DNA of 64,000 bases, taken from NCBI GenBank assembly GCA_018398585.1, contig JAGTTD010000010.1:32218638-32282637 (forward strand), read 5' to 3'. This document shows, in pieces, positions 2,909-56,939 of the stretch; within the stretch, counting starts at the first letter, position 1; every line of letters starts with the position of its first letter. The notes below the pieces were generated by a model that saw only the letters and a program-made list of their open reading frames with translations, was not told where the DNA came from and ran no database searches. Source of the stretch: Simmondsia chinensis. Lineage: Eukaryota; Streptophyta; Magnoliopsida; Caryophyllales; Simmondsiaceae. A program made the translations under genes and the position numbers.

Positions 2909-5037
2909 TCAGTGTACTGGGGGGGTTGCTGTGCCGCCGTCTGACGTATCGGTAGTGCGGTCGTCTTCATCCTCGCTCAATGAACCCAGCCTCAAGTCGT
3001 CTTGCTCCCTAGCCTCTGCGTGCATCCAGTCCTTTAAGCACACGGACATCTCCAAGCTGGACGATGATAGCTTCGCCCTCTTCTTTCCAAACAACCTGTC
3101 ACCAAGACTAAACGCACCCTCCGATGGTACTGAAGACACCGGACACATTAGTATATCACGTGCCATGGTGGAAAAAAGGGGATACTGGGCTTGATTTGTA
3201 CACCACCATTTTAAAATTTCAAATTGCGGATTCGCCGGTGTCGCGAAAAACTGGATCATCAGCGTCCACAAATAGAAATCTAACTCGTCACATGACGTGG
3301 GAATTTCTGCTGGCATGAATTGGTCCGACAGCGTCCACACATATGATGGCTGTGAACTACTTGCACCGGATGTAGAAGATCCTACTGTAGTAGAAGTAGC
3401 TTGTGGATTATCAGATGATAATCTCCGGGAATAATGAGAAAATAAAGTGTGTAGGTCCTTATTGACTTGCTCAATGAAAACTGAGGTATTAAAAGTCGGA
3501 TCTAATTTTTTGTAAAAATATTCGGCAAACAGGTTCAAACCCCTTCGTTTACAACAGGGATCAAAAATAGTTGCAAAACAATATAAAAGGGGTAGTTCAA
3601 GAAAATATTTACAAAATTTCATTTTCATTACTGCAATCGATGCGGCCAACAAGGGTTTTGATTCATTACCCGACATCCAATTTACAATATCAATCAATTT
3701 TGATATTGCTTGTGGTATATAGTCAGATAATAGCAACCCAAAAAAAGTTGGTAGCCTCCCTTAAATTTGAACGAGTATCCTGTATAAATTCTATCAGGAA
3801 ATCCTTATATGGTAAAATTCTATCTAACATATCTACCGTTGACGACCACCTAGTTGGCGAGTCTAATTTAAATTGTTTATACTCTAATTCATATGTCCTA
3901 CATAGAGTTCTAAATCTTTTCTTTCTGGTTCCGGATGATTTTATAGCTATTGTTACATCTCTTAAGGTGGAAAGAGAAGCGTTTATTAGACCTAGACCAT
4001 CCATAACTATTAAATGTAGTATGTGACACATGCAACGTAGATGAAAACACCGCCCATCTAACACGGGTCTCAAATGCCTAATTAATTGTTTAACGGATGC
4101 ATTGTTATTGGTAGCTTTGTCGAACGTAATACTAAAAATACGTCGCTCTATGCCCAAACCGCGAACTGCCTCCATAATCGCACCCGTGATTATTTCGGCA
4201 GTGTGGGGGTAATCTAAATTTGTAAAATGGATTATTCTTTTTTGAAGGGTAAAGTAGGAATCGATATAGTGTGCTGTTATGCATAAGTGAGGCACACCAG
4301 GTTTTGACTTCCACGTGTCGGACGTCAACGAGAACATGCTTGTGCTCATCCTAAAAAGTTCAAAGACCTCAGTTTTCATCCTTTGGTAATCTTTAAACGC
4401 GTCCCGCTTTAAAGTGTTCCGAGGAATCCTTATGATGGTAGGGTTCACCGCTGTTTGCATAAACCTGACGAATCTTGGGTCTTCGCCGGTGCTAAAAGGC
4501 TTTTCAGCCGCAATTACGTAGCTCCTGTCTATTAGTTTTCTGGGAGAATTTAAAGTTAGCAAGCGCCACGGTCACTTGCTGTACTAACCGTTGTTGGGCT
4601 CTTTCTAGGTCTTGTTCGGGGTGGGACCTAACTATATGTCTACTTAATGTGCCTGTCCCACTGCCGGGTGGATGACTAAAGGCCTTGGGTGGGTTACATA
4701 ATTTACAAAAAGCTTTATTAACTTTCCTATCTCAGTTAAAATACTTCCAGACCCCACTAGTACTACGCCTAGTAGTACTAGTTCTTGAGGGATGTTGGGT
4801 TTCTGTGGTCGGTGTGAGTTCCTCTTTATTTTGTGAGTCAGGACAATCCTACTCGTTATAGGCCTGTTGCTCAAAATCCCAATCTATACTGTCAGTGTAT
4901 GGAGGGCCTGGTTTTATAAAAGCTCGTTCCTCAGTATTAAGTTCGACAATTCTACTCCTCTTAGGTGTTACAGGCGATCGTCGAGAAGAACTAGAACTCG
5001 AATGACCGGCTCCAGACGATGATGTGTTGTGTGCCAT
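2909..5037 (-). pseudogene. hAT transposase, BED finger and hAT dimerisation domain, frameshifted
   Basis: Translation can start at 5037 (MAHNTSSSG). A BED zinc-finger remnant follows near 4720-4630, read in a second frame (FCKLC, then SRHIVRSH). The RNase-H-like core lies at about 4540-3740 and includes SLTSDTWKS and TFDKATNNNAS, where the first two catalytic aspartates of hAT enzymes normally sit. The C-terminal part (3736-2909) carries the dimerisation motif with SVPSEGAFS and a DUF4413-like region. Frame changes near 4850, 4640-4550 and 3730 break the protein, so it is not functional as it stands. The family normally cuts and pastes hAT DNA as a nuclear dimer. Confidence 0.9.
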
Positions 5038-23365: not shown

Positions 23366-24468
23366 ACTATATATAATAGAGGAGTTGGGCCTCCTCCAAA
23401 GCCCCCTGCCCCCGGTCCTTTTTTTTTAGATTTTTTTTTCTTTAATTACCTTTTTTTAATTTTTTTTAGATTTTTCTTTATTTATATATTAAACAACAAT
23501 AATTATTATTTATTTGTAGATTAAATAATAATTAATCTAAAAGTAGTCCAACTATATCTCAACGTATCAAAGGAATGGCAATGGGGCGGGTACGGCGTGT
23601 CCCTTTCATACCTGTACCCGCCACCCAAATCCTATACCTATTCCTGCCTCAATACCCTAATGCGCGTACAAAATGATATCTATAATTGTACCCGCCACCC
23701 AAATCCTATACCCGTACCCGCCCCATTACTCGCCACGGCTATGAAGTGCATATCCAACAATAATTAATCTAAAAATAGCACAACTATATCTCAACGTATC
23801 AAAGGGATGGCAATGGGCCGGGACGGGTACGAGGTGCCTCCTCCATACCCGTATCCGCCACTCAAATGCTATACTCGTACCTGCCTCATTGCCCTAATGT
23901 GCGTATAAAACGATTATCTATACCCGCTCATATAAGTTATTTATTATTATTTTTAAAAACAAATTACTTTTTTATAACATGTACAAAATGATTATCTATA
24001 CTCGCTCATATTAGTTATTTAATGCTGTTTTTAAAAATATATTATTTTTTATAACATTGGTAAATAATTTCGATTCTTGAATTTAAACATGTATTTTTTT
24101 AATTTCAAGGTTAACTATGTACAAAATGAACCGATTATGGTGGGTATGGGGTGGGGTGGGGCGGGGCCGGTACGAAGCATGGCCGGGCCGGTCCCCACTT
24201 ATACCCGAGCCCGCCCCGTTTCAATTTGGTTTATAAGATCTACGCATTAGACAATAAACTAACCGTAACTGCCACCCAAATCATGAAAAATATAGTTTGT
24301 CTTCTTTTTTACTTAAAACTTTTACAGTTACTACTATGAGAATTATGTAAATTGAACAACATTATGGACAGTTGAACAAACAAGATGTTAATTTGATGCA
24401 AAAAATCATGGATATAAAATACAGTGACCAATAAATACCATCCGTGCATCACACGGGAACGAACCTAG
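23366..24468 (+). mobile_element. Helitron-like element A
   Basis: The 5' side reads 'tatataatagaggagttgg' and the 3' side has the hairpin CCGTGCATCACACGG (24442-24456), then CTAG at 24465-24468 and T. The last 170 bp match the 3' end of element B, and the first 60 bp match its 5' end. No Rep/helicase gene. The middle holds GC-rich hAT-like repeats. Helitron assignment is by terminal structure only. Confidence 0.65.
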
Positions 24469-26062
24469 TATATATATAATAGAGTAGTTTCCAACTCCTC
24501 CAAAATCCTCCCCACCCCAACCCCTTTTTTTAGATTTTTTTCTTTATTTTTTTTTCAATGCTACATTCCCAATCCCTTTTTCTTTAATTTTTCCTTTTTT
24601 TTCTTAATTTTCTTTTTCCAATCCTACATTCTTACATATTTACCTTTTTATTTTCCTTTTTTCTTAAAAAATTTTTTTAGTCACCCAATTAATTTGTATA
24701 TTAAACAACAAAAAATATTATTTATTTGAAGATTAAACAACAACAATTAATCTAAAAGTAGCCCATCTATATCTCAACTTATCATAGGGATGGCAATGGG
24801 TAGGGGCGGGTACGGCGTGCCTCCTCCATACCCGTACCCGCCCCATTACTCTAATATGCGTACAAAACGATTTTCTATGCCCGCTCATATTAGTTATTTA
24901 ATACTCTTTTTAAAAATGAATTATTTTTATTATAACATTGATAAATAATTTGGATTATTAAATTTAAAGGCATATGTTTTAACTTCAAGGTTAACTATGT
25001 ACAAAATTATCAAAGGGAGGGCAATAGGGTGGGGCAAGTACGGGGTTCCTCCTTTATACTTGCAACCGCCACCCAAATCCTATACTTGTACCCTTCCCAT
25101 TGCCCTGTTAATGTACTAACAAAACAATTATCTATACTCGCTCATATTAGTTATTTAATACTACTTTTCAAAATAAATTTTTTTTTAACCATTGATAAAT
25201 ACGATTATCTATACCCACTCCTATTAGTTATTTAATACTATTTTAAAAACAAATTATCTCTTTTATAACATTGATAAATAATTTGGATTATTGAATTTAA
25301 ATACGTATCTTTTTAATTTGAAGTTAACTATATACAAAATAAAGCGCGTATAGTGGGTATGAGATTAAGGTGAGGTAGGTATGGAGCGGGGCAGAGCGGG
25401 TCTCCAGTTATACCCCGTACCCATCCCAAACGGGGCGCCTACCCGCAAGTAGTGGGTTTCACCCGCCTCATTGCCACAAAATGAACCGGGTATGGAGGGT
25501 ATGACGTTGGGCGGGCCAGGCATGGAGCGTGGCGGGGCGGGTCCCCACTTATACCCATACCCACCCTATTTGACTTTGGTTTATAAGATCTACGCATTAG
25601 ACAACAAAATTAACAGCATCTGCCGCCCAAATCCTATACCTCTACCCCGATCATTACCCGCCATGGGTATGAAGTGCATATCCTTACTCACCCCGGTGGT
25701 TACAAGCCCGTACCCCTACCCGCTTCATTACCCGTGGGTATCCATTATCCGCCTTGTACTTCCTTAGTATGTGTACAGAGCGATTATCTATATCCGCTCC
25801 TATTAATTATTTAATACTATTTTTAAAAACAAATTATTTATTTCATAACATTGATAAAGATTTTGGATTATTAAATTTAAACACTTATTTCTTAATTTAA
25901 AGGTTAACTATTTATGTACAAAATAAAACACGTATGGTGGGTATGAGTTGGGCCGGGGCTGGTATGGAGCACGACAGGGCGGGCCCCCACTTATACCCGT
26001 ACCCGCCTCAAATGGGGCAGCTACCCGCGAGTAGCGAGTTTCACCAGCCCCATTGCTATTCG
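23574..26062. repeat. Array of GC-rich 'GGGATGGCAATGGGGCGGG' repeats
   Basis: Copies of a 'gggatggcaatgggg' start are seen at about 23576, 23806, 24789 and 25013. Each is followed by variants of 'gcgggtacgg' and 'ccatacccgtacccgcc'. Three are preceded by the same 'aattaatctaaaa(g/a)tag' phrase. This pattern is known from ends of plant hAT elements, so the region looks like several nested or tandem non-autonomous copies. Boundaries could not be resolved. The ORFs here are products of the repeats. Confidence 0.6.
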
Positions 26063-28375: not shown

Positions 28376-28432
28376 ATGAATAACAATAACAATAACAACA
28401 GTTCTAGTCTGTTGAAAAAAAAAAAAAATAAC

Positions 28433-28480
28433 AATCCCAGTGCCATAGGGGCTCCCGCACGAAGCAGGGTCTGGGGGGGG
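28433..28480 (-). mobile_element. Au-like SINE body, 3' fragment
   Basis: On the plus strand 'cccagtgcc', 'gggctcccgc' and 'gcagggtctgggg' appear in the order expected for the reverse complement of an Au-type SINE 3' region. An A/CAA-rich tract on the left takes the place of the (TTG)n tail. The 5' part is missing. Confidence 0.65.
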
Positions 28481-31578: not shown

Positions 31579-32016
31579 TGATGCAGCATGCAAAGTGAAA
31601 AATTTGGGAACAGAAAGGTTCAACGGCCTTCCTTTTAATTTTGTTATGAAAATAATAAAACAAGGGAAAAAGTTGCTCAATTTCTTGCAACTCGAGAAAG
31701 AGAGAAAATTCTAAATTTATGAAATAAAATCTGGAAAATATGAATTAGCTAAAACCCTAGATTTCCTCTGGTTTAAATAGAATAGCTATTTGATTATGAA
31801 TAAAACATTAATTATAACTACAACAACAACAACAACAAACCCAGTGCCTAAAAGGGCTCCCGCAACAGCAGATTAAAAGATAATTATAACTAAAATATGA
31901 AAATAATACTAATCCTAATAGAATTCAAACTCTAATAGCTGCATCTGCGTCTGTCTTGTTGCCAATCCCATGCCGCCAACATCTAACCGCCAAGTGCTGT
32001 ATTGCCGGCTACATCA
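31579..32016 (-). repeat. Gypsy 3' LTR, carrying a SINE insertion
   Basis: Aligns with 36247-36620 along its length, apart from a 72-bp gain made of a 60-bp SINE fragment (31821-31880) and its 12-bp TSD. The scattered mismatches show that the insertion is not recent. Confidence 0.9.
31821..31880 (-). mobile_element. 60-bp truncated Au-like SINE with 12-bp TSD
   Basis: A perfect TSD, TAATTATAACTA, occurs at 31809-31820 and 31881-31892. The other LTR has the empty site with a single related copy. On the minus strand the insert ends in GGGAGCC, CACTGGG and (TTG)n, the 3' end of an Au-type SINE; the rest of the SINE is missing. Confidence 0.9.
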
Positions 32017-32053: not shown

Positions 32054-35000
32054 CTATGTCAACCACGAGTCATTGTCGCCAAAGTATGGAGTCGGGCGCT
32101 TAGCGTTGAAGACATCAAAAATCCTCATTCCAGATGGCAATTGAAAACGGTAGGCATTGTCATTGATCTTGCCAATGATTTTCAAAGGACCAATATTGCG
32201 CGCCGTCAGCTTGTTGTACTCCCAAGCTGGAAACCGCTCTCTGGTGAGGATGGCCCAGACTTGGTCACCTAATTTATACTGGACCTGGCATTGGTGCTTG
32301 TCACTTGCCAATTTGTACTTGGCGCTAGCCTCCAGGATTCTTGCGCGTGTCTTCTCATGTCTGTCCTGGAGGTTGGAAATGAAGTCTTCGACCTTACCAT
32401 TGGGGCGAGTAAGATCAGGAATTGGTGCCTGATCAATTGGAGCTCTCGACACAAACCCTAGACGATCTTGAATGGTGGAAATTCCGTACTCCTGTTAACT
32501 AAGCTGTTGTAGACAAACTCAGCTTGGTAGAGCTTTTGCTACCATCCCTTGGTGTTGTTGACAACAAGACAATGTAGCAAGTTTCCCAATGAGCAGCTTG
32601 TCATTTCAGTTTGACCATCAGTCTGAGGGTGGTGAACCGTGCTGAGAGCGAGAGAGATTTGCGCCATCTTCTACAATGGCTTTCAGAAGTAGTTCACGAA
32701 TTGTATGTCCCTATCGAAGATGATGCTTGTCGGCAAACCCTAAAGCTTGTAGACTTCCCGGAAATAAAACCCAGCAACGTAGACGGCATCAACAACTTTC
32801 TTACACCAGTTGAAGTGGGCCATTTTAGAGAAGAATTCCACAAAATGAAAATTGAGTAAATACTACCTATAGCCCTCGGCATTCCCAGCACGAAGTCCAT
32901 GCTCACATCCGTCCATGATTGAGTCGGGAGCGGCAGCGGCATGTAAAGGCTCACGTTGGTCACTCTGCACTTCGATATCTGACATATACATCAACTCCTG
33001 ACAAACCTCTCAACTTCCCTCTGCAAAGTTGGCTAGAAATAGTTGGCGATAATGAGCTGCAGTGTCTTATCTCATCCCACACATCTTGCATTGTGCTTTT
33101 CCTCAACGATCTTAAGCCGTAGACTCGAATTCGGAACACAAAGTTGATTTCCCCTGAAAAGGAACCCGTCATGAATGGATAACCAGGAGCAGAACCGGAT
33201 TGTGCCTCTCGCCATATCTCACCAAAAGTTAGATCGTCCTTGTATTGATCCGCTAGTTGATCAAATCTGGTCATGGTAACTCGGTGTTGAGAAAGAAGGA
33301 GATTCCACCTACTCAGAGCATCTGCCACTTTGTTCAACATGCCCGACTCGTGCTTGATGATGAAGTGGAAGATTTGTATGTAACTTGCGCACTTTGCGTG
33401 TCGGTTTGAGAGCTTATTGATGTACTTCAGTGCCACATTGTCGGAGTACAAGACGAACTCTTGGTTGGCTAAGTATGACTTCCAGTGCCTCAACGCCCTT
33501 ACCAACGCGTTGAACTCAAGGTCGTAAGTCGAGTAGTTCAACTTACTCCCATCAAGTTTCTCACTAAAGTATGCGATAGGCCTCTTGTCTTGACTAAGAA
33601 CAGCGCCAATGCCTGTGTTAGAGGCATCTGTGTGCAGCTCAAATGTCTTGTGGAAATCTGGTAAAGCTAATATGGGGGCTGTTGTCAGCCTTCTCTTGAC
33701 CTCGCCAAAGGCGATAGCTGCTAGGTTAGTCTAGGCAAAGGAACTTTTCTTCATGCATTCAGTAATTGGCGCCATGATGTAGCTGATGTTTGGAACAAGG
33801 CGTCTATAGAATGACACCAAGCCATGAAAACTCTTGACTTCGCCAACCGTTCTTGTCTAAGGCCAATCTCGAATTGCCGCTATCTTTCCTTCATCAGATG
33901 ATATACCGTCCTTGGACATAACAAACCCAAGGAAGGTGACCCTGTCTCTTATGAACTCACATTTCTTTAAGATTACAAATAGATATTGCTCTCGTAAGGT
34001 ACTTAAGAAGTCTTTGAGATGTGCTAAGTGCTCAGCTCTACTTCGGCTATAGATCAAGATGTTGTCGAAGTAGACGACGACGAACTTCATAATAAACAGG
34101 CGAAGGACCTGGTTCATAAACCGCATGAAGGTATTAAGTGTGTTCAACAAACCAAACGGCATCACAAGCCACTCATATAATCCCTCTCGAGTCTTGAAGG
34201 CAGTTTTCCACTCGTCTCCAGGCGAGATGTGAATCTGATAATACCCGCTCTTTAAGTCCAACTTCATGAATGTCGTTGAATTCTGCAATTGATCAAGTTA
34301 GTCATCCAGCCTCGGAATGGAAAAATGATAACGCACCGTGATCTTGTTGATAGCTCTACTGTCAACACACATCCACCAACTACCATCCTTTTTGGTGTCA
34401 ACAGAGCTGGCACTGCATAAGGACTCAAGCTTTCCCTGATGAACCCTTTGTTGAGAACCTCCTCCACTCAGCATCTCAACTCCTCATGCTCTGACGGACT
34501 CATACAATAGTGAGGCCTATTTGGCAAGGAAACCCTCAGCATCAGATCAATGCGGTGTTGTATGTCTTGTAGTGGTGGTAGTGTATCTGGTAATTCCTTC
34601 AGAAGGACGTCAGCGTACTCACTCAACAAGGCGGTAACCTCACTCGGTATCTCCCCTGGATTGACCTTACTCTCCTTTCCAATAAACACAAAGACAATCT
34701 TGGTGTCACCAACCTCCTTGGGGAACATAGCTTATCCCTCTATACTTGGGTGTTTGAGCTGCTAAAGCTCTCGGTGCCTTATCCTTCTTAGGCAACAAGA
34801 TAATCTTTGATTCCTCGAAGAAGAAGCTATATGTGTTCTAACGCCCGCCATGGATGGCACTCCTATCATATTGCCACATGCGCCCCAACAATAGATAGCA
34901 AGCGTCCATGGGGACCAAGTCACACCAAATCACATCCTTGTACTTCGACCCAATCGAAAAATTCACCAAGCATCATCTAGACACAGTTACCTGGCGAATT

Positions 35001-43337: not shown

Positions 43338-46300
43338 TTAGGCAAGAATATCACATTTCCATAGATTACCCATGAGCAAATCCATTGTGGTGCTGCTGAT
43401 TGAGCTGCAGTTTTTTAGATTCAGCCCAACCAGGCGTTTTCCGAGCTTGATGAGGAACGGCAAGCTCTTATTTGATATTCCTGAGCATCCCGACAAAGAA
43501 AGGATCTGCAAGTTTGGTTGAGCCATTGCTGACAAGGCAGCCATACCAACATCTGTTATTGCAGAACATGAAAGATCGAGATCATCGAGTGAGATGCAAC
43601 TTTCTGCGATAGCGAGCAAGCTCGCATCAGTGATTCTCCTGCACCCATCAAGATTCAGCATCTTGATTGAACCACCATGGAGCTCAGCAATGCCAAGAAC
43701 CGATTCGTCAGACAAGTTAATGCAACCGCTAAGGTTTAACTTCACAAAGCCCGCCTTTGAGCTTCCTAGAAAGGAGAGAACTCCATCGTCTGTTAACCCA
43801 TAAAGCCCACTTAGATCTACGTGGCGAAGCTCGGGGCAAACCTTACCCAGAATGGCTAAGCTAGCGCTACCGAAACCGGGACAGTTTTTGATAGAAAGGG
43901 ATCGAAGAGAACGACATGGATTTTGCAGAGTAATTCCCATGGCCATGTCTCTAAATCCCATGCACTTCACCATGGAAAGAGATCTTAATTTCGATCTGCA
44001 GCATGAGAGGGCAAAGAAAAACCCGGTTTGTGTAATCCTGTTGCATTCTTCTAACTGCAAGCTCTCAAGCGATGTCAATGATCTTGAAAATGCCACCAAT
44101 CCATTGTCAGATAGAAAGCACGACTTGCGCAGAATAAACTGTTTGAGGGTAGGACAACCGTTTCCAACAGCTTCAAGACTTGAATCCGTTACCCCCAAGC
44201 ACGAGTTAATGGAAAGAAAAACAAGAGAATTTAGACCGCAGGCATTGCCCATGATCCAAAATCCCTTCTCACTCATATTCCGAAGATTGCTTAAAGTAAG
44301 GTGAGTGAGAGACTTGCCATAGCGGCCAATTACAACAAGAGACAAATCTGAGATACTTAGGCCCCTAAGCTTCAACTTCGCTAGCGATGAAGAGGCTGAT
44401 GCGAAAAGGCTCACAATCCCTCGATCACCTACCAAAGGACAGTCTTCAATAGAGACCGATTCAAGCTTAGGGCAGCACCTAGCAATGGCTTCCAAGCTCG
44501 CGTTACCAATGTTTGGGCAAGATTCAACAGATAGAGTAGTCAAATTAGGGCAATTTTCTGCGACTGCAATCAAGCCCTTGTTGGAAATTGATGAACAATG
44601 AGATAAGTCAAGCTTCTCTAACATATGGCATCCATTAGCTATTTCAAATAAGCCTTCATCCCTGATAGAAGAGACGTTCCAAATGGAGAGCGATCGGAGA
44701 GATGGGCAACCATGGCCTATAGCCAAGAGGCCAAAATCGGTGATTCCTCGAGTGGAGTTGTTTCCTCTGATTGTAAGCTTCCCGAGTCCACCTCGGTTAG
44801 CGGTTCCAACAGCAATAGCAGCTAGTCTTATATCGGTAGCTTTCTTTCCCTCTAAGCACCTTGCCAGATCACCATCATCCTCAAGATCTGCACCGTTATC
44901 ATCTTCCATGGCCACATCTGTATCATTATTTGCTCGAGGTGATGCTTTGGGGCGTAAATCAGCCTTATGGATGCTACTTAAGAGAGTGAGCCAATGCTTA
45001 GAAATGCAAGCGCATGCACTTCTCTCGGGTCCAGATAACCTTCTTAAGATCTCAAAGAGGCATTCATCAGGAAGAGAATCGATTGATGATTTGATCTCGA
45101 CCATGGATTCATTACCATAGCGAGATCGCTTGAGAGGGGGGAAGTAGAAATCCAACTGGGATTCAGTATGAAAGAAAACACTTGAACCGATTGAACCAGG
45201 ATGGAAGGACTTTCCGTTACATAGTTCGTCTTCCCCTGAAAGGGCGAAAATAAAGTATATAAGCAACAGCTCATCATGTAGTACTAGAAAGAAAAGGATG
45301 AATTTTGTACCGTTCAAGTGAACAAAATTTTCTCTTCAGTCCATTTCGAGCCCCAAAATCTGGGATTTCATTGTCTGAACTAATATCCTCAAGAACAAAT
45401 GAATGGAAAATCCAGGTCTAATTCTTTTATATAGTGGTGAGCAGTATGATATTTGCCCAAATAGGGCCACGAACACATGGGTAAAGGTTAGGTGAGCTCG
45501 AACCTAATACCCCATACATAGGAGTTGAAAGACTTAATCGCTACACCAACTAGTCTCACAAGAAAATCTAGGTCCAGTGACATGGATTTTGGCACACTGA
45601 AAATTTCAATAGAATTTGACAGCAATCCCAATTTGTTATTTGCTCCATTGATTTCTAATGTTTTTTTGTTTGCTCAAGTTTCTTATGAAACCTATGCAAC
45701 ATACCTAGTGCCCCAAAGGCTCCCGCCTAAGCAGGGTCGGGGGGGCGGATGTATGCAGCCTTTCCCCTTCAGGGTATTACCCCTGAAGAGAGGCTGTTTC
45801 CGAGTGCCTCTAACCTGAGGGTGAGGACTTCCAAGGAGGTCACCATCGTGGTACTACTCTCGCCCAAGCACGCGTAACTTCAGAGTTTTAATGGGATCTG
45901 GTGATGGTGTGTTGGTACTCTCTTTGGTTTCTTATGAAACCTGGCTCATAATTTTCTTTTAGAGTGATGAAACAACTCAATAGTGCACAAGAGAACAGAA
46001 ACTTTTCCAAGCTAGTATTTTTCCGGTCAAGTAATTTGTGCTAGCCAAATCTAAAAACATAATAGAAAAGTTGGTGAATTTAGGTATGATGGTAATTTGA
46101 ATGAGATTTAACTATAATCCCACCACTAATAATTTCCAGGTTAAACTAAATTTTTGAGAGGCAAATCTAAGATAGTCTACAAAGAAACTATCTCATCTTG
46201 GGCCGGTCAATTCCTCAAGCAACGGAAGCAAATAATTAGGCCCCCAATTCACTAAAGGCCTCTTAAGAAATTAGCATATTATTAGTTTGCGTCTACCATA

Positions 46301-47148
46301 TCATCATAGATAAATAGAGAAATAACGACCTATGATATGGTGAATTCAAGCTGGCATGGACACCTCGGTTACAAACAAGAGGGTATTTGATCTAATTTAG
46401 TTTGGATCCCTAAAATCTCTGGACCAGCCATGCATCTCAAGCAAATTGAGATGGACCAAGGTAGCAGTGCAAAATTCTCAACAAATCAATTCATGCATAG
46501 GGCTAAAGTAAATTTAACCAATCAAAATAAAAAAAAAAAACAACAATGCAATTGCTCTCATGCACCACCAAAACCAAACCTAAACAAATCTCATCGTCAA
46601 CCAAGTTCCTTCAAAAATCCAAATGTGAATCACATACCCATAAGACAAAAATAAAGAAGTAGAGCACAGAAATATGAACACCTAAACACCCACAAATTAT
46701 AAGCAGACCCAAGTATCCAAGCATCAACATTTAAACCTAAAAATTCAAAAAAAGCAAACATATAATAGTATTGAAAAACAGTATAAGATATAATATCCTT
46801 GTAACATATTAAGGAATTAGCTACCCCAAAAACTTATCCTGATAAATAAAAGTTTAAGAATAATTTTATACTAACATACCCCTTTACGCAAAGTTAGATT
46901 TGAAGCATGAATAATACATAAGCCCACCGATACCTCATACTTCAAACATGTTAATATTTAGAATGGAGCTATTTTAGAACTCATAACCTCGGGATTAACA
47001 CAACTTTAATACTATATCAACAAATCAACTATCTCAAAAGTTTAATTCGATGGGTAAAAATTTCAGAATAATTTTATACTTTAACAAACAGTACTACCCA
47101 GGTTAAGCAAAAAGAGCAAATACCACTACAATCAACAACGGTCGGCAT
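43338..47148 (-). CDS. EBF: EIN3-binding F-box protein (EBF1/EBF2-like), two exons
   Basis: Substrate receptor of an SCF ubiquitin ligase that, in Arabidopsis, targets EIN3/EIL1 for degradation in the nucleus and so restrains ethylene responses. Exon 1 codes MPTVVDCSG from ATG 47148 to 47124, with GT at 47123. Exon 2 runs 45235-43338 after a CTTTCAG acceptor. The joined frame gives 640 residues, the usual EBF size. A basic patch PPLKRSRY lies at about 41-48, the F-box at about 60-98 (SLPDECLFEILRRL, CACISKHWL), and then some 18 leucine-rich repeats of the FBL type up to the C-terminus LWKCDILA, matching the conserved EBF ending. No stop or frameshift. The intron is 1888 bp and holds several retroposons. 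Exon 1 is placed by homology to known EBF starts and correct splice phase; cDNA would confirm it. I cannot say whether it is EBF1 or EBF2. Confidence 0.95.
45475..45560 (-). mobile_element. tRNA-derived SINE head in EBF intron
   Basis: On the minus strand an A box TAGTTGGTGTAG (45552-45541) and a B box GGTTCGAGCTCACC (45504-45491) are about 40 bases apart. The body continues leftward without a clear end; no TSD found. Confidence 0.65.
45678..45693. repeat. TSD of 5S-headed SINE, left
   Basis: GTTTCTTATGAAACCT, identical to 45927-45942. The sequence is itself nearly palindromic. Confidence 0.92.
45694..45926 (-). mobile_element. SINE with 5S rRNA-derived head and Au-like body, 233 bp
   Basis: Perfect 16-bp TSDs bound the unit. 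Read on the minus strand from 45926, an almost complete 5S rRNA-like stretch comes first (about 45917-45820): GTACCAACAC, AGATCCCATTAAAACT, GCGTGCTTGGGCGAGAGTAG and GACCTCC-TTGGAAGTCCTC in 5S order. Next is a body with GGAAACAGCCTCTC, CATACATCC, GACCCTGC and GGGAGCC, the order of Au-type SINE 3' regions, ending GGTATGTTGCAT with a single TTG. The pol III internal promoter elements of 5S (A box, intermediate element) are largely kept; the C box has small changes. Because both parts lie between one TSD pair, they were retroposed together. Confidence 0.88.
45820..45917 (-). pseudogene. 5S rRNA-like sequence (SINE head)
   Basis: About 98 bases align with plant 5S rRNA from near its position 11 to near 110. 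GCGTGCTTGGGCGAG is exact; GATGGTGACCTCC has one base fewer than GATGGGTGACCTCC. It is not a functional 5S gene: both rRNA ends are replaced, it is single rather than arrayed, and it is embedded in the SINE. Confidence 0.9.
45927..45942. repeat. TSD of 5S-headed SINE, right
   Basis: GTTTCTTATGAAACCT, identical to 45678-45693. Confidence 0.92.
46888..47045 (+). repeat. Relic of the 51010-51450 family in the EBF intron
   Basis: 'gaagcatgaata', 'catgttaatattta', 'gaactcataacctc' and 'actatatcaacaaatcaac' follow the left arm of the inverted repeat at 51010-51222 in the same order. Confidence 0.55.
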
Positions 47149-52299: not shown

Positions 52300-53691
52300 T
52301 GATGTCCGCAATTAGATCCGAATTTGAGAAGTTTTGGTGGTCAAGGGAGATGAGAAGGCACTCACGGCAATTCAGATGTGTCTTACCGATGACGTTTTTA
52401 CAAAAGTTTTGGAAGTGAAGACCGCTAAGGAGTTGTGAGATAAATTGCAGGATATGTTCTATTTCAAGTCTGTCTCCAATAAACTCGCAGTTAAGTGTCG
52501 ATTGTTTACGTTTCATATGTCAGAAGGTACGTCACTTAAGAATCACGTCAATGAATATAATTCAATTATTCAAGATTTGAAAGAATTGGATGATGTTCCT
52601 AAGGATGAAGATCAGGCAATGTTGTTGTTATTTCTCTCTCTACTTCATATAAGGGTTTTGTTGAAAGCATGATTTATGGTGGTAGACAAACCATATATGT
52701 TGATGAAGTTAAGAAAAACCTACTGAGTAAAGAACGAGTAGATAGAGAATTATCTGATTATGTTATTAACCCAGGTAGTGGTTTATTTGTGAGAGGGAGA
52801 ACTGAGTATGATCATAGTGGAAGCAAGTCTAAGTCTCGGCATCAAGATCTAAGCTGTAACTACTGTAATAAGAAAGGGCACATGAAGAAAGACTGTTACA
52901 AGCTTAAGAGAAAACTTGAAGCAGATAACAGGTCTGACCAGAGATCCATAGTAGCTAGTGTTATGGAAGATGAGATTGATGGAGATATTCTGTCTATGTC
53001 TGAACCTCAATCCAATTTGAGGGATAGTTGGATTTTGGATTTGGGTTGCTCCTATCATTTTTGTCCCAATCGGGATTTGTTTCCCACGTACGAGTTAATT
53101 CGAGGTGGAGTAGCTTTGATGGGTAATGATACTCCATGCAAAGTTCTGGGTATAGGAGCAATTCGTTTTAAAATGTTCGATCGCACTATCAGGGTTTTGA
53201 GCGATGCTCGCCATGTTCTTGATTTGAAAAAAAGTCTCATCTCCTTAGGTACTCTTGAGTCTAAAGGGTACAGGTACACAGTTGAAGGTGGAGTTTTGAA
53301 GGTCGTTAAGGATGCTTTGATAGTCATGAAAGGCAGAAGGGTAGGTCCTCTGTATGAGCTTGTCGGCTCCACATTTGTTAGATCTGTTGTAGTGTCTTCA
53401 TCATCATTGTTGTTGACAGAATCAGAGATCACAAATTCAAGAAGTTTGAGATTGGATCATTCAGGCGATAGGGGTATGTCTGAGCATAGTATAAGGGGCT
53501 CTTTGTGTGGTCGGTCTACAGGACTGATATTCTGTGAACAAGGACTTTATAGAAAGCAGAAAGATTTTCGCTTCAAGCAATTCTTGACGAGTAGAGATAT
53601 CACGTTTGATGAGTCTTCATTATTGAGTCCACGGAAGATGTCATCAGTCAGTTGTTATTCAGGTCAGGTGAGTAAGCCAGAGGAAGTTTAG
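52300..53691 (+). pseudogene. Copia Gag and protease region, one frameshift, degenerate integrase start
   Basis: Gag reading is continuous in sense from about 52340 (KVLEVKTAKELW across a stop at 52438) through MFYFKSVSNKLAVKCRLF and LPTS-like 'LHIR' at 52655. There a frame change near 52660 moves to the second ORF (52669-53691). That ORF has a zinc knuckle CNYCNKKGHMKKDC (C-x2-C-x4-H-x4-C) and a protease site SWILDLGCSYH, where the usual D-S-G is D-L-G. The GAG-pre-integrase region follows (VMKGRRVGPLYEL), then a decayed H2C2 region (RLDHSGDRGMSEHS, FCEQG). The frame then ends. A short tail at 53780-53870 (ADNLTDMFTQMLP) is the copia polyprotein end. Confidence 0.88.
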
Positions 53692-56632: not shown

Positions 56633-56778
56633 CATAAATATATATCAAGCAATTACATATTTCTCTTGGAACTTGGAGGAGAGCATTAGTCAACCCTCTA
56701 AGGAGGTGGAGCAGATAATGTGTTGTGTGCACTCTCAAATGAGCTTGCAGCATTTTGCAAAAATCATCAACAATAATC

Positions 56779-56903
56779 GTCCTCAGAAACAACCTCTCAT
56801 TAGGGTATTTCCTAATGGAGTAAGATTGCATACATCCTACCCCCAGACCCTTCTCACGTGGGAGCCCTTAAAGCACTGGGCTTCTTGTTGTTGTTGTTGT
56901 TTT
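56779..56903 (+). mobile_element. 5'-truncated Au-like SINE, 125 bp, 13-bp TSD
   Basis: Perfect TSD ATCAACAATAATC at 56766-56778 and 56904-56916. The insert contains GAAACAACCTCTC, TTGCATACATCC, CAGACCCTTC and GGGAGCCC, then a (TTG)n tail. It starts GTCCTCAGAAAC; GTCCTC is also the last conserved 5S block of the SINE at 45694-45926. Confidence 0.9.
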
Positions 56904-56939
56904 ATCAACAATAATCACAAAATGAAGTATTCCGGATAA

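Follow-up and report, generated by a model that had tools for sequence, protein, structure and literature searches.

A putative 5S-headed short interspersed element within an intron of a Simmondsia chinensis EBF gene

In a 64,000-nucleotide stretch of the Simmondsia chinensis genome (contig JAGTTD010000010.1; hereafter the window, whose numbering is used throughout) we analyzed a 233-bp insertion on the minus strand at 45694-45926, inside intron 1 of the gene for an EIN3-binding F-box (EBF) protein. Its first part is derived from 5S rRNA, and the rest is a 3' body with relatives elsewhere in the window. We read the unit, with moderate confidence, as a retroposed copy of a plant short interspersed element (SINE) with a 5S promoter, similar to SINE3 elements and analogous to the insect element HaSE3; its source was fairly probably a family that already existed and was multiplying. 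We lean slightly towards a wider proposal, namely that Caryophyllales hold a SINE family with a type-1 (5S) RNA polymerase III (pol III) promoter. This would be the first SINE3-like lineage of plants, with a 5S head placed on a widespread SINE/RTE-type 3' end and with 5S and tRNA heads swapped on one tail as in insects.

A single insertion carrying head and body

The unit is bordered by a perfect direct repeat of 16 bp, GTTTCTTATGAAACCT, at 45678-45693 and 45927-45942 (16 of 16 positions identical, 100%). This pair was the only direct repeat of at least 10 nt reported in positions 45500-46100, and at the base composition of the window about 1.6e-4 16-mer direct repeats would be expected there by chance. 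The initial annotation, made from the letters alone, had described 16-bp target-site duplications enclosing a 233-bp unit within an EBF intron; the repeat search bears out the duplications, and the intron is corroborated by exon 1, donor and acceptor sites read from the sequence.

Head and body thus lie within one pair of duplications, the arrangement of SINE3 elements that are inserted as single units. No inner duplication of at least 10 nt was found in 45500-46100 between head and body or flanking the head alone. Since the duplications enclose both parts without such an inner repeat, a single insertion event bringing them together is supported, and the inserted molecule was therefore a chimeric RNA or a chimeric cDNA. 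The alternative of two insertions, in which a 5S retropseudogene landed beside or inside an older copy of the body, could appeal to the body-only copies described below, but it is very improbable, given that the only duplication of this length surrounds all 233 bp and none surrounds the head by itself. A miniature inverted-repeat transposable element was also considered and rejected, as 45500-46100 contains no inverted repeats of at least 10 nt. The duplication at 45678-45693 itself contains a 5-bp inverted repeat (GTTTC-TTAT-GAAAC), probably by chance.

Table 1. Positions in the window of the element, its parts, its host intron and the relatives of its body
Feature	Position	Strand	Basis or remark
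5' target-site duplication	45927-45942	minus	AGGTTTCATAAGAAAC on the element strand
5S rRNA-derived head, 104 nt	45823-45926	minus	Rfam match and alignment to a presumed plant 5S
Internal control region (box A, intermediate element, box C), aligned to 5S 50-97	45833-45879	minus	4 substitutions and a 1-nt deletion
3' body and short tail, ending TATGTTGCAT	45694-45822	minus	Presumed Au/Angio-SINE-like
Body hairpin, 8 pairs	45767-45788	minus	Retained in the 56782 copy, two pairs changed on both sides
3' target-site duplication	45678-45693	minus	Direct-repeat search
EBF intron 1, 1888 bp, holding the element	45236-47123	minus	Splice model read from the sequence
Relative of the body lacking a head; tail of (TTG)n followed by TTTT	56779-56903	plus	Own 13-bp duplication ATCAACAATAATC at 56766-56778 and 56904-56916
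Strongly 5'-truncated copy, body end and (TTG)n	31821-31880	minus	12-bp duplication TAGTTATAATTA at 31881-31892 and 31809-31820
Relative of the body's final 48 bases, without a head	28430-28478	minus	Search of the window with the body

The 5S rRNA-derived head

A search of the window against Rfam (cmscan) gave a 5S rRNA match at 45928-45812 on the minus strand (51.7 bits against a gathering threshold of 38, E 6.8e-8) that spans positions 1-120 of the 120 in the model. It was the sole match at the gathering threshold in the whole window; at E values up to 1, nine further matches appeared, all to microRNA families and below threshold. ARAGORN, run in its bacterial setting, found 0 tRNA genes in the window.

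We then aligned the head with a presumed plant 5S sequence, from which the host's own 5S may differ: 5S positions 12-107 align with 81 of 95 sites identical and one 1-nt gap, and the alignment score of 129 compares with a maximum of 34 among 2000 mononucleotide shuffles. Ahead of this lie 9 diverged nucleotides, opposite approximately 5S positions 3-11. The initial annotation had counted about 98 bases in 5S order at the minus-strand start of the unit; the alignment confirms the order, and the 104 nt that it gives are close to that count. The head is in sense orientation and nearly complete, its first base falling at about 5S position 3, so that a sense 5' 5S head including the internal promoter region, a feature of SINE3, is present. 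At the positions that we presume for the promoter elements, relative to this reference, box A has changed at 1 of 15 sites, the intermediate element at 0 of 6 and box C at 2 of 18, with a 1-nt deletion in addition.

A repeated 3' body

The body, about 128 nt after the 5S part, recurs in the window. It matches 56782-56887 (72% over 108 columns, E 3.5e-14) and 28430-28478 (80% over 49 columns), while 31820-31864 is matched by both of these relatives as queries and not by the EBF body. That the body has such relatives, two with duplications of their own (Table 1), counts in favour of reading the unit as a retroposed SINE copy. In the copy at 31821-31880 the duplication starts with TA, and a TTTT lies at 31900-31903, 8-11 nt upstream. 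All three relatives are headless; they are therefore silent on which head this body usually carries. We presume the body to be Au-type or Angio-SINE-like. The interpretation in the initial annotation is partly supported, in that a single event inserted a 5S head joined to a mobile 3' body of SINE or LINE (long interspersed element) type.

As RNA, the body (45697-45805) has a strong fold (z -4.0, with 0 of 200 shuffles as good), whereas the relative at 56782 (z -1.28, 20 of 200 shuffles as good) and the entire 233-nt unit (z -1.34) are unremarkable. The covariation in the hairpin listed in Table 1, coming from two sequences, is suggestive only.

A multiplying family or a single event

The main question is whether the chimera was copied from an established 5S-headed family or was made once. 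Had 5S rRNA been copied directly, the head would be expected to arrive almost unmutated. Much of the divergence of the head seems older than this insertion, because the head differs at 14 of 95 sites and all 16 pairs of the duplications are identical (0 of 32 in the comparison; Fisher p 0.02). The differences are also unevenly distributed, with 10 substitutions in the 38 sites of 5S 12-49 and 4 in the 58 sites of 5S 50-107 (Fisher p 0.016, for a split picked after inspection), and this pattern looks as if the promoter half had been retained while the lineage moved. Pre-insertion divergence, clustered changes and a sense, near-complete head lend modest, single-locus support to a family. That such a family swapped a tRNA promoter for a 5S promoter, as the initial annotation proposed, is plausible and has an animal precedent in HaSE3.

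The principal alternative is that a reverse transcriptase, while copying RNA from a SINE or LINE with this body, jumped to 5S rRNA or a diverged transcript of it, and that the product was inserted once, with no 5S-headed family behind it. Such events are described in the human LINE-1 catalogue (PMC13174262); a single head-body copy is known here, from a 64-kb window, and headless copies of the body are present in it. On the other hand, the 5S at this locus is in sense orientation and nearly complete, unlike the usual human anatomy, and it has diverged while its duplications remain unchanged. Anatomy alone does not exclude a one-off chimera, because the human U6/LINE-1 chimeras described in the same source are sense and full-length. 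We regard this alternative as unlikely, though with a substantial claim to attention.

A second alternative would take the head from the long terminal repeat (LTR) of a Cassandra element, in whose 5S part pol III transcripts start, instead of from 5S rRNA, with the remaining mechanism alike. Cassandra elements, which are found widely among land plants, carry a 5S sequence whose promoter motifs are conserved (PMC10886601), and mutations are described in their 5S parts (PMC3095306), so that a diverged head would need no long SINE lineage. The window, however, holds no second 5S copy, no repeat of at least 10 nt other than the 16-bp duplication surrounds the element within 45500-46100, and the head runs straight into the body; we consider a Cassandra source improbable.

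Several observations weigh against a 5S-headed family. When 5S 50-97 is compared with all remaining head sites the difference is not significant (p 0.15), and box C has the substitutions and the deletion given above. Some of the 14 head differences may be variants of the host 5S, since the reference was a presumed sequence, and the p-values for divergence and clustering are modest. The two compensated hairpin pairs were reached by 126 of 500 shuffles. The EBF duplication starts with AGG, and a T-run some 10 nt before it is lacking, which leaves the insertion signature of plant RTE elements unclear at this copy.

Nor did searches for further copies of the head-body junction add support. There is no second copy in the 64-kb window, and an exact-gap junction pattern gave 0 matches each in viral and prokaryote contigs, where plant repeats are hardly to be expected. 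Among predicted proteins, searched with translations of three frames of the element (237 candidates for the longer query, 22 for the shorter), the translated junction was not found, which is a weak negative. In addition, a distant BLAST search returned no match in plasmids; for phages it gave nothing beyond a match of 33 bases (E 0.2), present in two records of the same Synechococcus phage. The longer protein query matched 1 of its 237 candidates, the Hibiscus sabdariffa protein P0121, through 5S-derived residues, and the shorter query 0 of 22. P0121, annotated as a hypothetical protein, looks like a translated 5S array because the 5S-like residues recur several times in it, and it is probably a mis-annotated 5S rDNA array.

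A proposed mechanism

For the preferred reading, a copy of a 5S-headed SINE, we propose the following mechanism. With its box A, intermediate element and box C, the 5S-derived head would serve as an internal pol III promoter of type 1, driving transcription from approximately the element's first base. The transcript would pass through the body to a downstream T-run, because the element contains no run of four T; the first such run is found 91 nt past its end. The sequence is only consistent with such transcription: box A and the intermediate element are nearly intact, box C is altered as described, and there is no internal T4.

A LINE reverse transcriptase may recognise the structured 3' body or its tail; it would perhaps belong to the plant RTE clade, because two truncated relatives in the window end in (TTG)n. 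The transcription, the LINE partner and the derivation from a multiplying family are what we infer; the structure, the duplications and the repetition of the body are observed. Target-primed reverse transcription would then have placed one complete copy in EBF intron 1, creating the 16-bp duplication. The lineage itself probably arose by a template switch of a reverse transcriptase from SINE or LINE RNA to 5S RNA.

Host gene and other features of the window

The open reading frame at 43338-45317 on the minus strand encodes the EBF protein. Of 7987 candidates scored, 1089 proteins matched it with E no higher than 0.001, 120 of them listed, and the best among the matches listed is from Ancistrocladus, with 64% identity. 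The coding part of exon 1 lies at 47124-47148, with the ATG at 47148 and the peptide MPTVVDCS; a donor GT follows at 47123, the acceptor AG ends at 45236 before GEDEL, and exon 2 runs from 45235. The element has the orientation of the gene. We built a tree of 40 rows, the window protein and 39 of the 120 listed homologues, with order labels of our own. In it the window EBF falls among Caryophyllales (16 rows, support 100/100) and groups with Amaranthaceae, Caryophyllaceae and six further rows (13 rows, 96/92), not with Nepenthes or Ancistrocladus.

Elsewhere in the window, two open reading frames at 2909-4562 (minus) resemble what we take to be a broken hAT-type transposase. The one at 52669-53691 (plus) resembles what is presumably part of a Copia gag/protease, including a zinc knuckle, and the one at 32960-33541 (minus) what is presumably part of a Gypsy-type RNase H. 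A unit of about 77 bp forms two similar arrays, with two copies in each, about 1.2 kb apart at 23903-24057 and 25127-25280.

Standing in the literature and comparison with known systems

A 5S head on the tail of a mobile repeat is an arrangement known from animals, and we did not find it for plants in the literature searched. A 5S-derived SINE from a plant was likewise not found there, in a search that had the Angio-SINE paper, SINEBase and Repbase outside it; such a family may already be named in one of these. One passage of a 2010 paper mentions 5S-homologous sequences in SINE3 "including plants", but its plant reference is the Cassandra paper (PMC3095306). Where a 2024 Cassandra paper discusses promoter gains by nonautonomous elements, the SINEs it names are in animals (PMC10853983). 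AnnoSINE is described as sorting plant SINE candidates by tRNA, 7SL or 5S heads (PMC8825457, PMC11490119), and its results could therefore include a 5S class.

A 5S-headed family in plants, if real, would suggest that what endures in plant SINEs is the 3' tail and not the promoter. Plants would then also have an element of the type from which Cassandra has been speculated to arise, by a 5S-headed SINE landing in an LTR (PMC10886601); a different paper favours an encounter between an LTR element and an array of 5S rDNA (PMC10853983). If the chimera is a one-off, the locus is a curiosity.

Cassandra, a terminal-repeat retrotransposon in miniature, resembles our element in having a 5S-derived pol III promoter within a plant retroelement (PMC10886601, PMC10853983). 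It differs in that here no LTR pair was seen, and there are one 5S match in 64 kb and a 16-bp duplication.

In the human 5S/LINE-1 chimeras, too, 5S is joined to a retroelement's 3' portion, and frequently one duplication pair encloses both. In the catalogue, 5S accounts for 10.5% of 253 chimeras of known type, and 20 of 27 5S/LINE-1 insertions have duplications of 7-17 bp (PMC13174262). These are typically antisense, truncated and one-off, in contrast to the sense head described here, with 5S 12-107 and a diverged start.

Among plant elements, a 2022 review derives SINEs from tRNAs and files those it lists, Au included, as tRNA-derived. Our locus is like the Au and Angio-SINE elements in its location in a gene intron and presumably in its 3' body; their heads are tRNA-derived, whereas the head here is 5S and no tRNA gene was found in the window. 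For plant RTE LINEs an insertion signature, "Tn-TA", has been described (PMC13295347). The two truncated relatives with (TTG)n tails resemble these elements, and the copy at 31821-31880 fits the signature as described, but the EBF element itself has neither a (TTG)n tail nor the T-run.

SINE3 elements are reported from vertebrates and some insects, with hosts including zebrafish and other fish, fruit bats, springhare and Tribolium (SINE3-1_TC) (PMC7245038, PMC3272025), and 5S-headed SINEs have also been reported from Aspergillus (PMC5063351). HaSE3 of Helicoverpa armigera combines a 5S head with a body and tail taken from a tRNA-derived SINE, which its authors attribute to template switching to 5S rRNA (PMC3272025). 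Although those are described animal families and ours is one locus in a plant, with a body unlike theirs, both have a 5S head, a promoter region that is the best-kept part and target-site duplications (on some copies in the animal elements). As in HaSE3, where they also occur with a tRNA head, a body and tail are joined to the 5S head, and the locus would work like a SINE3, of which it is a candidate member.
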